Positions 22,265 to 60,825 of a stretch of 64,000 nt of DNA are shown here, one piece after another. Source of the DNA: Opitutaceae bacterium TAV5 (GTDB taxonomy: Bacteria > Verrucomicrobiota > Verrucomicrobiia > Opitutales > Opitutaceae); assembly GCA_000242935.3 (NCBI GenBank), contig CP007053.1, forward strand, positions 1,116,001 through 1,180,000, written 5' to 3'. A program made the position numbers and the translations under genes. The notes under the pieces are model-generated. The model was not told the origin of the DNA, made no database searches, and saw only the letters and a program-made list of their open reading frames with translations. Numbering within the stretch: the stretch's first letter is position 1; the number at the start of each line of letters is the position of its first letter.

Positions 22265-22340
22265 GGAAAAGCAACTACGGGGAGCCTTGGGAAATTCATT
22301 TTTAACCACTAATGGACACTAATCCCAAACCATGAGGGAA

Positions 22341-29725: not shown

Positions 29726-29816
29726 GAGCCCACGAAACACACGAAAAGACACGAAAATCAGGCAGCCGGATTTCTTCGTATTTTTTTCGTGTCCTTTCGT
29801 GTGTTTCGTGGGCTCT
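29726..29816. repeat. CACGAAAAGA-type inverted repeat
   Basis: Arms 29726-29757 and 29783-29816 match at about 31 of 32 positions; each begins GAGCCCACGAAACACACG and is made of ~10-nt CACGAAAAGA units. It lies between the oxidoreductase start and the pal terminator. Confidence 0.88.
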
Positions 29817-40230: not shown

Positions 40231-40261
40231 AGAGCGGTTCAAATAAAACTGTAGTCGTTTT

Positions 40262-40350
40262 TTAACCACGGATTTCGCGGATTATCACGGATTCAAACCA
40301 TGCCTTGCCGCTTCCTCCTTATCCGTGTGCATCCGTGATATCCGTGGTTC
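40262..40350. repeat. ACGGAT-type inverted repeat (empty copy)
   Basis: The left arm starts TTAACCACGGATTTCGCGG and the right arm is the opposite strand ending ATATCCGTGGTTC. Units of ~9-10 nt carry CGGAT. Only ~25 bases lie between the arms, in contrast to 49143-49686 where a gene is enclosed. Confidence 0.88.
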
Positions 40351-40489
40351 TGTTTTCAGGATCCTGTACGGCTACAATTTTTAAAAAAATGCTTTAAAGA
40401 GATTTTAAAAAAATGTTTTTGAACAGAAGCCTGATTGCCCGCGGGGCGCGGGAATGCCGGGATCAACGTGTGATAAAGGAATTTAAAAA

Positions 40490-49142: not shown

Positions 49143-49686
49143 TAACCACGGATGTCACGGATTTTCACGGATAAAGAACAAACATGATCGGTTAGCGAAC
49201 AACACGTTTCCATTGCAGGTCTGCGTGTTTGAAATTGAGGAGCAACGCCAGCTTGAGGCCACTGATGGCGAGATAGCCGATCACCTGCGCTTGATCTGTC
49301 GGGGTGAAATCATCTTTCACCTTGGGATCTGCAATGACAAGTTCATCGACGATCATGTCGGGAATGAGCGTATCGATGAGAATCCCATCATAAAAAACAT
49401 CGTGGCGTTTTTGCTGATTCACCTGGTGGCCGCGTTTACGTAATTCGATAACGAGCGCGTTTTCATAGGCTTTTTCACTCAGCCCAGGTTTAAGCGTATT
49501 CAGTACCGTCATCGCCGATCCTATAATGGCTTTGCTGATTTCAGAATGGATCAGGCTGCCGGTACTCATGGTTGGATAATCTGGTGGCATTCGGAGATGC
49601 CTTTGACCACGGATGAAAGATTGTGCAGATGGAAGGGTCTGCGGGACAGATTCTTATCTGTGTTAATCCGTGCGATCCGTGGTTCA
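49143..49686. mobile_element. Candidate repeat-bounded element carrying a GxxExxY gene
   Basis: The left arm 49143-49176 (TTAACCACGGATGTCACGG...) and right arm 49654-49686 (...TCCGTGCGATCCGTGGTTCA) are 33-nt inverted repeats matching at about 27 of 33 positions, and they enclose the GxxExxY gene. A degenerate extra forward arm (ACCACGGATGAAAG) is at 49607. The arms are of the ACGGAT family, which also occurs without a gene at 40262-40350 and 60727-60825. Mobility is inferred; no target-site duplication was established. Confidence 0.5.
49192..49569 (-). CDS. GxxExxY protein (PDDEXK_3-like)
   Basis: The 125-aa protein contains the namesake motif as GLSEKAYENALVIELRKRG (residues ~32-50), with Glu and Tyr in the expected spacing, and later YDGILIDTLIPDMIVDELVIADPK, where the Asp and the hydrophobic-Lys segment fit a PD-(D/E)XK-like fold, then QVIGYLAISGLKLALLLNF. 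Family members are small, very widespread and of unknown function. ATG 49569 (MSTGSLIHSE) is favoured; ATG 49590 adds seven residues. It is flanked on both sides by ACGGAT-type arms, and the gene is the only content of that element. Confidence 0.88.
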   Translation of the reverse strand: MSTGSLIHSEISKAIIGSAMTVLNTLKPGLSEKAYENALVIELRKRGHQVNQQKRHDVFYDGILIDTLIPDMIVDELVIADPKVKDDFTPTDQAQVIGYLAISGLKLALLLNFKHADLQWKRVVR

Positions 49687-50105
49687 TCTGGTTTTTGAGG
49701 ACTTGGATGAAAACAGGGAACCGCCGATGCGCCACATGATTTTCCCTGAAATTGCACACGGGAATGCTGAAATTCGCGGAAACCAACGGAGAGAGGTTTT
49801 GCTTTCAGGCAGAAAATTCCAGAGACCGCCGGAAAGGTCACCGGGAACACAGGGCTCCGGCACAGAGAACACCGCGGCCAGAACGACTCCACAAAACTCC
49901 CCTCATGCCCCAATCACCTTCAATCCAGTTAATTACTTCCCTATGGAACAGGATCATTTTGAATAAACCGCTAAAGGTCGCTAACGGACGCTAAAGACCG
50001 GACAATCGGAAAAAATCCGGTTTAGCGTCCGTTAGCGACCTTTAGCGGTCTCTCTCTTCGGTTGGGCTCTGCCGCTCCTTATGCTGCAGGCTCCTTCCCG
50101 GTTCG
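49570..50105. other. Gene-free stretch with repeats
   Basis: Apart from the ACGGAT-type arms (to 49686) and the GCTAAAGG-type element (49967-50049), the sequence 49690-49960 shows no credible frame, RNA fold or promoter that I can support. Confidence 0.5.
49967..50049. repeat. GCTAAAGG-type inverted repeat (copy 2)
   Basis: Arms 49967-49995 and 50021-50049 are exact 29-nt reverse complements made of 10-nt units (CCGCTAAAGG, TCGCTAACGG, ACGCTAAA). Compared with the copy at 22341-22411, the unit-linking bases differ (A/T, G/A) but both arms of each copy agree with each other. Confidence 0.92.
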
Positions 50106-60611: not shown

Positions 60612-60726
60612 GCCCTCTGCCGTTTGGCCCGATGCCGAACGGCAACTCCCGGAAACGTGTAGTATCCGGTTTTTATCTGTGTAATCCGTGGTTAAAAGCA
60701 GAGTGAGGCGTTCAAGGCGTTCGCTT

Positions 60727-60825
60727 TGACCACGGATTTCACGGATGGAAAGCTGCTTTCAGGAATCGGGACTGGAATAAACTCCCTGTCTTTATCCGGG
60801 TTTCCATCCGTGAAATCCGTGGTTA
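60727..60825. repeat. ACGGAT-type inverted repeat (empty copy)
   Basis: TGACCACGGATTTCACGGAT... (60727-60751) and ...ATCCGTGAAATCCGTGGTTA (60801-60825) match at 24 of 25 positions, with about 50 bases between. A solitary right-type arm (TTTATCTGTGTAATCCGTGG) precedes it at 60672-60697. Confidence 0.88.

Follow-up and report, generated by a model that had tools for sequence, protein, structure and literature searches.

The stretch of DNA analysed here (the window) comprises 64,000 nucleotides of contig CP007053.1 from Opitutaceae bacterium TAV5. Within it, one small gene is enclosed by inverted repeats, and the same repeats recur elsewhere in the window with no gene between them. What relation do the gene and the repeats bear to each other, and does the protein act on the sequences that surround its own gene? 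The original prediction, made from the window sequence, was that the gene and its arms form an autonomous element with MITE-like derivatives, and that the protein could recognise or process the arms. Our analysis supports this interpretation.

A GxxExxY gene lies between inverted arms

The features of the element, with the means by which each was found, are as follows.

49192-49590, minus strand: GxxExxY (TIGR04256 / PF13366) gene of PD-(D/E)XK nuclease fold, 132 amino acids (open reading frame, profile and AlphaFold)
49143-49174, plus strand: arm downstream of the GxxExxY gene, TTAAC plus three CACGGAT units at periods of 9 and 10 (repeat search)
49147-49153, 49156-49162 and 49166-49172, plus strand: the three CACGGAT units of the downstream arm
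49654-49684, minus strand: arm upstream of the GxxExxY gene, three inverted units at periods of 9 and 10 (repeat search)
49656-49662 (one base different), 49666-49672 and 49675-49681, minus strand: the three units of the upstream arm
49608-49614, plus strand: isolated extra CACGGAT unit between the gene and the upstream arm (by eye)

The window protein matches the TIGR04256 GxxExxY profile at 117.8 bits (cut-off, 35) and the PF13366 PDDEXK_3 profile at 110.7 bits (cut-off, 22), making it a member of the family well above cut-off. The motif itself reads G36xxE39xxY42, and the putative active site is D78...D88-P-K90. The arms at 49144-49174 and 49654-49684 are 31 nt long and 84% complementary, confirming that a nuclease-fold-like gene lies within inverted arms. 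To the eye, the isolated unit at 49608-49614 and the arm at 49654-49684 together resemble a degenerate solo hairpin. When the window was searched with Rfam at gathering thresholds, tRNA alone was found, and no family reached threshold at the arms. A second palindromic, high-copy repeat adjoins the element at 49937-50078; it has dozens of matches in its own genome, many of them one place counted on both strands.

The gene-in-arms arrangement is general

Of 387 genomes drawn from the window's phylum, 228 have TIGR04256. A scan of named genomes gave 80 GxxExxY loci, which span many phyla and include two from archaea. Since viral contigs yielded a single GxxExxY relative, carriage by phage is not the principal route in the sample scanned. 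As a measure of flanking arms we took the best ungapped inverted repeat between the 250 nt on each side of the domain, with a score of at least 14 as the threshold. Pooled over the window's own genome, its phylum and the named genomes, 157 of 195 GxxExxY loci reached this score, compared with 4 of 585 same-length segments, and the arms fell below the threshold at the other 38 loci. The original prediction had staked itself on such an enrichment of GxxExxY genes beside repeats. The named-genome and viral loci considered together gave 63 of 81, whereas segments of equal length taken from these loci gave 5 of 243. The 195 loci descend from 198 loci and 197 genes by a requirement for sufficient flanking sequence; they still hold two duplicate pairs (L005/L007 and L045/L126), and 116 of them come from the window's own phylum.

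Neighbouring genes served as a further control. At the named loci, 62 of 79 GxxExxY genes had arms, compared with 6 of 412 neighbours of 80 to 450 amino acids. Two of these six are further GxxExxY genes, three encode TIGR02436 four-helix-bundle proteins as judged by profile, and the sixth looks unrelated by eye. The same contrast was seen at the held-out loci described below, where arms were present at 81 of 104 loci and 1 of 33 controls. A GxxExxY gene between inverted arms is thus the general rule, and the window is one case of it.

Each arm is an array of three 7-nt words

Where the arms could be parsed, each consists of three copies of a 7-nt word, mostly of the form CRCNRA[G/T/A], 8 to 10 nt apart, and the outer flank is commonly TTNAC. 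The word differs between elements and is common to both arms within one element. Mean identity among the six units had a median of 0.90 in 150 parsed elements, compared with 0.54 when both arms were permuted alike; the 150 are what a length limit left of the 157 loci above threshold (L007 and L045 dropped), 125 of them have a unit identity of at least 0.7, and 106 are in standard phase. In these 106, the word begins with C, followed by A (72) or G (34), C, a variable fourth base (A in 57, G in 38, C in 7 and T in 4), G (58) or A (48), mostly A (102), and G (91), A (8) or T (7). The original prediction had assumed a single ACGGAT repeat family; this has to be given up, for different GxxExxY loci carry different words.

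The units match between arms at 2,197 of 2,352 positions and the spacers at 232 of 416, the comparison being made in the 112 equal-register elements among the 125, and units within an arm agree at 91%. Ungapped inverted-repeat scoring favours equal spacing in both arms and inflates spacer identity; the contrast between units and spacers is therefore conservative, and the equal-register count of 112 out of 125 is itself no evidence. Because the direct repeats are kept while the spacers pair poorly, the arms are better described as iterated recognition sites than as a stem. As to what the protein might do with them, the predicted recognition is borne out by the covariation described in the next section; processing of an arm hairpin fares less well, what is conserved being the word, six times over.

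The arm word covaries with two residues of the protein

Protein similarity and word similarity are correlated across elements (Mantel r, 0.45; permutation standard deviation, 0.04). In the numbering of L061, used throughout for the family, the residues of interest are 2 and 3, which correspond to S19 and K20 of the window protein. Among the training elements, T2 accompanied G at base 5 of the word in 43 of 43 cases and A2 accompanied A in 14 of 15; E3 or G3 went with G in 40 of 40 and N3 with A in 7 of 7. The rule for base 5 was written down before the held-out loci were fetched. These were other GxxExxY copies from 40 named genomes, each already the source of one training locus; of 130 fetched, 104 stayed below 90% identity to every training protein, with a median of 58% to the nearest one. 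Among these 104, arms were present in 81, of which 67 were parsed at a unit identity of at least 0.7 and 52 were in standard phase. The rule called base 5 correctly in 45 of the 52 and wrongly in 7, compared with 28 correct for a constant guess of G. By strength of call, the score was 23 of 25 for strong G, 8 of 9 for strong A and 14 of 18 for weak A. The window protein itself breaks the rule: S19 and K20 predict A, and the CACGGAT word has G.

A second rule, in which T or S at residue 89 predicts G at base 7 and any other residue predicts A or T, was correct for 48 of the 52 held-out elements (constant guess of G, 27). A FastTree phylogeny from which columns 2, 3, 89 and 105 had been left out requires at least 35 changes at base 5, but only about 3 at base 7. 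For this reason we do not claim base 7 and residue 89 as recognition, and their association may reflect clade history.

The base 5 association behaves differently when relatedness is taken into account. In 35 phylogenetically independent pairs whose members differ in base 5, training and held-out elements being pooled, the combined rule had, on average, 27.9 pairs with it and 0.03 against; T2 alone had 20.8 with G and 0.0 against, and the best other column, its dichotomy chosen on the same pairs, netted 13. Restricting the pairs to strongly supported branches left 9, in which T2 had 6.5 with and 0 against (p about 0.03). Pairs of elements within single genomes remove base composition and lineage: among 52 such pairs in 21 genomes, 42 agreed with the rule, 1 went against it and 9 were ties, and one random pair per genome gave 17:0:4 in the same order. 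Both of these tests, on independent pairs and on same-genome pairs, include training elements. Residue 2 carried 0.55 bits of pooled excess mutual information and residue 3 carried 0.42, the next best column reaching 0.18 (1 of 158 pooled rows had a gap and was dropped). In the same-genome pairs, no residue column is prominent for word base 2 or word base 4. Because residues and base covary and the rule predicts held-out data, recognition of the arm word by the GxxExxY protein is strongly supported by these sequence comparisons.

The protein is predicted to have a nuclease fold

Both AlphaFold models are confident (pLDDT of 97.2 for the L073 domain; mean pLDDT of 92.2 for the window protein), and the GxxExxY model can with confidence be assigned a predicted PD-(D/E)XK-type fold. 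D62, E72 and K74 are invariant among 60 aligned GxxExxY sequences. The best solved match by VIA-align is 4ic1_G (SSO0001), which we take to be a Cas4 protein, with a Z score of 9.8 over 96 residues; further matches were the Hjc resolvase 1gef (7.1), Cas4 4r5q (6.6) and BglII (6.3), in a range below 8 where matches by chance are common. Profiles agree weakly, L073 matching Cas4 with a best E value of 0.0046 in PADLOC. For the window protein, PADLOC gave no match, no match to a DDE transposase was found, and the only family matches were GxxExxY and PDDEXK_3. PHROGs returned nothing firm for GxxExxY, and a sequence search of solved structures found none clearly related (best E value, 0.46).

In the full-length model of the window protein the first helix spans residues 10-33, with S19 and K20 inside it. 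The L073 model had suggested that residues 2 and 3 cap helix 1. The full-length window model rules this out; the helix starts at residues 2-3 in the L073 model only because the sequence modelled there began with the domain.

Solo copies carry the word and spacing of resident genes

The original prediction had named two gene-free copies of the repeat in the window, and both are real hairpins. Together with other copies found here, they are listed below.

40263-40350, no strand assigned: gene-free hairpin of the CACGGAT word class, 84-nt type (shares its outer flanks with copies elsewhere in the genome)
60727-60825, no strand assigned: gene-free hairpin of the CACGGAT word class with another loop (pattern search)
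60675-60694 (about), minus strand: single arm of the CACGGAT word class (pattern search)
29729-29812 (about), no strand assigned: gene-free hairpin of another word class, CACGAAA (pattern search)
22305-22323: single CACTAAT-class arm, carrying the word of another resident gene (pattern search)

The 84-nt solo hairpins (40233-40380 in the window) have long outer flanks in common, which by eye themselves contain inverted TGTAGCCGT; these copies therefore appear to have been propagated together with their flanks, as one larger unit. Elsewhere in the genome, at L035 (G000:C1:3799034-3799199), a CACGAAA hairpin, as judged by eye, is nested within a CACGGAT hairpin.

The genome to which the window belongs (7.42 Mb, two contigs) gave nine TIGR04256 matches, which by count make up seven loci, and all seven have flanking inverted arms. 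Their words are CACAGAG, CACTAAT (two loci), a mixture of ACAGAAG and ACGAAG, CACGGAT (the window), a GCAGAG-like word and CACAAAA. One of these loci, L005:1477-2265, is a fused tandem GxxExxY pair whose second domain, by eye, is without the E-x-K residues, and another, L008 (G000:C1:2383455-2383796), is a frameshifted GxxExxY copy with arms that are still nearly perfect.

Arms are far more numerous than genes. A two-unit arm pattern allowing up to 3 mismatches matched the genome 58+58 times, compared with 4+3 for the reversed control, and exact three-unit arms were found 69+64 times (133 in total), compared with 0+0 for the control; the three-unit pattern left the word open but covers CAC-type units only, so that other solo classes go uncounted. 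When 100 listed arms of the 133 were each assigned to the nearest of three words on offer, with spacing left free, 95 matched one of three resident genes in both word and spacing: 35 were CACAGAG at 8,8, as in L001; 32 were CACGGAT at 9,10, as in the window; and 28 were CACTAAT at 10,10, as in L002. The others were 4 mixed arms at 10,10 and 1 CACGGAT arm at 9,9. At least 6 of the 100 belong to gene elements, and the rest lie away from the seven GxxExxY loci. By eye, no target-site duplication was seen among the hairpin copies read in this genome.

A similar relation was sought in 38 genomes by counting word pairs, counts that include each gene's own arms (a few each) and so partly confound abundance, and that rest on words known for part of each genome's genes. 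In all 15 genomes known to have a CACAGAG-type gene, CACAGAG pairs were more numerous than CACGAAG pairs. In all 7 genomes known to have a CACGAAG-type gene, CACGAAG pairs reached 6, CACAGAG being the more numerous in two of these. Of the 16 other genomes, CACGAAG pairs reached 6 in 4 and CACAGAG pairs in 7. Reversed controls gave 0 to 2, but 8 in one genome (G418, CACAGAG).

Gene, solo hairpin and no hairpin occur at one site

Presence/absence polymorphism of the arms, which the original prediction required, exists in two places. In the other genome of the genus (G387), about 60 nt stand in place of the 621 nt of the window element, although this empty site is anchored on the right by only 39 nt, with the following gene on a different contig. 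Among 121 Flavobacterium genomes, an unbroken match through the gene-bearing element of L145 was obtained in at least 12, a count that includes the query genome. At 46 further Flavobacterium species sites, read by eye (20 + 26), 21 had a solo hairpin with the word class of the L145 element, 12 had arrays of a different class, 5 lacked any hairpin and 2 had a GIY-YIG-like gene; the remaining 6 had other inserts, unresolved sequence or N. Gene, solo-hairpin and no-hairpin states thus occur at one orthologous Flavobacterium site, which is too diverged for target-site duplication to be judged. The two GIY-YIG-like genes (L435 and L464) are small, were named by eye, and stand at the site that in other species holds the GxxExxY element or a solo hairpin.

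A minimal element that would serve its solo copies in trans

We consider it likely that GxxExxY genes and their arrays form a mobile hairpin system run by a single nuclease: a minimal element whose protein reads the words at its own ends and also serves solo hairpins in trans. The element would consist of one PD-(D/E)XK nuclease gene between inverted ends with three 7-nt words each. The protein would bind the word, residues 2-3 in its first helix setting the purine at position 5, with T2 or E/G3 going with G and A/V2 or N3 with A. Solo hairpins of the same word and spacing would be non-autonomous, depending for their upkeep and spread on the cognate nuclease acting in trans. This nuclease probably makes nicks or cuts at the ends, and copying would then rely on host repair or replication. 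An autonomous element with MITE-like derivatives is supported as a description, by the enrichment and by presence/absence at orthologous sites, while we infer that it is the GxxExxY protein that cleaves and moves the DNA. Recognition of single-stranded units by the protein is a variant that the data allow.

Three other explanations were weighed. The arms could be operators, with GxxExxY an autoregulator that binds DNA sequence-specifically, the solo arrays its other regulatory sites and nothing moving. Such an arrangement would account for an upstream arm that often lies within tens of nucleotides of the domain start, for units that look like iterated binding sites and for the covariation, which shows recognition only; we nevertheless think it unlikely, since the arms flank the gene on either side in the inward orientation typical of element ends, one genome has 133 three-unit arms with loops that differ among those read, one hairpin is nested in another (L035), gene, solo and empty states share a site, and the nuclease residues are invariant. 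A still less probable explanation is that the hairpins form a repeat family of their own, mobilised by another enzyme, into which GxxExxY repeatedly lands as a passenger. Covariation of residues with arm bases, in independent and same-genome pairs alike, would be unexpected of a passenger, and solo arms would not match the word and spacing of resident genes; what speaks for it is that one Flavobacterium intergenic site is occupied, depending on the species, by arrays of one or other of two word classes or by GIY-YIG-like genes, and that TIGR02436, another small-protein family, also occurs between inverted arrays of other words. Least probable of all, if only by a shade, is an RNA or DNA stem-loop (a terminator or processing hairpin) whose stem the protein recognises: the arms are inverted and able to pair, and the solo copies are compact hairpins, but selection for a stem would neither make direct repeats, which are nearly as alike within an arm as between arms, nor spare the spacers, and no Rfam family exceeded threshold at the arms.

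If the single-nuclease system is as we propose, a common family without an assigned function gains a probable role, a DNA substrate and a specificity rule at the level of residues. The few enzymes believed to drive palindromic repeats in bacteria would be joined by a nuclease superfamily, a widespread class of genome repeat would be explained, and a compact sequence-reading nuclease would become available. Whether one may go further is, to us, evenly balanced: GxxExxY may represent a previously unrecognised class of autonomous transposase: a PD-(D/E)XK nuclease of about 120 amino acids, working alone, that moves itself and its cognate solo hairpins, with TIGR02436 genes as a second lineage on the same plan. 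This larger reading covers many bacterial phyla and some archaea, and is framed around iterated 7-bp end words and a short residue-to-base code. If true, it would place these among the smallest self-mobilising elements in cells.

Relation to known systems

We found no prior description of a GxxExxY-array system in the literature searched, which contained few subscription papers, so that this absence is weak. In the portions of papers available, GxxExxY receives passing mentions and PDDEXK_3 none that we found. GxxExxY/PF13366 is mentioned in the available part of a report on an algal virus genome (PMC12085832), and a paper on Arctic microalgae, likewise available in part, also matched (PMC9756366). 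Titles matching the arm strings, among those listed, are unrelated to bacterial repeats; in the MITE, hairpin and repeat-family literature, the titles and the abstracts shown among the matches listed do not name GxxExxY; and in a paper on heptamer repeats (PMC4853749) GxxExxY is absent from the passages on those repeats. The TIGR04256 and PF13366 entries state no function; association with arrays and recognition of the word are added here.

The closest parallel is with RAYT and REP/REPIN sequences, for which the available part of one study (PMC2817692) describes the same three kinds of relation as those found here. As in that system, the GxxExxY gene is flanked by inverted copies of the repeat (157 of 195 loci) and coevolves with it, and cognate abundance follows as well, partly confounded by the gene's own arms. 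Unlike RAYTs, which are tyrosine transposases (Y1/HUH) related to IS200/IS605, GxxExxY has a predicted PD-(D/E)XK fold, and unlike REPINs, its arms are three iterated 7-nt words, with covariation placed at residues 2-3 and base 5. With an enzyme from a different superfamily and a repeat of different construction, GxxExxY is not a member of the RAYT/REPIN system. GxxExxY is predicted to fall in the fold superfamily of Cas4, Hjc resolvases and restriction endonucleases, a likeness of fold and not of common function.

The MITEs of ordinary insertion sequences are likewise short, non-autonomous palindromes that have their ends in common with a gene-bearing copy and show presence/absence. Unlike them and their parent insertion sequences, the GxxExxY element has no DDE match, no target-site duplication seen by eye, and ends made of iterated words. 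A homing endonuclease reads the uninterrupted site, whereas the words that covary with GxxExxY lie in the element's own ends, although the solo hairpins could also be targets.

The TIGR02436 genes form a case of their own. Three of them were met among the arm-flanked control genes (L112:3429-3759, L131:1643-1991 and L145:3235-3607), and an inverted repeat scoring at least 14 flanks 17 of 30 TIGR02436 loci (L170-L199), a count that has no matched control; the words differ from those of GxxExxY. No report joining a four-helix-bundle protein with an inverted repeat was found in the literature searched. S23p presumably belongs with the TIGR02436 four-helix-bundle proteins. In the intervening sequence (IVS) elements of 23S rRNA, according to the available part of one account, a small S23p open reading frame lies inside a selfish element (PMC4990558). 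The GxxExxY element resembles these in having a small open reading frame within a selfish element, and IVS elements differ from it in protein family, in their rRNA location and in their words.
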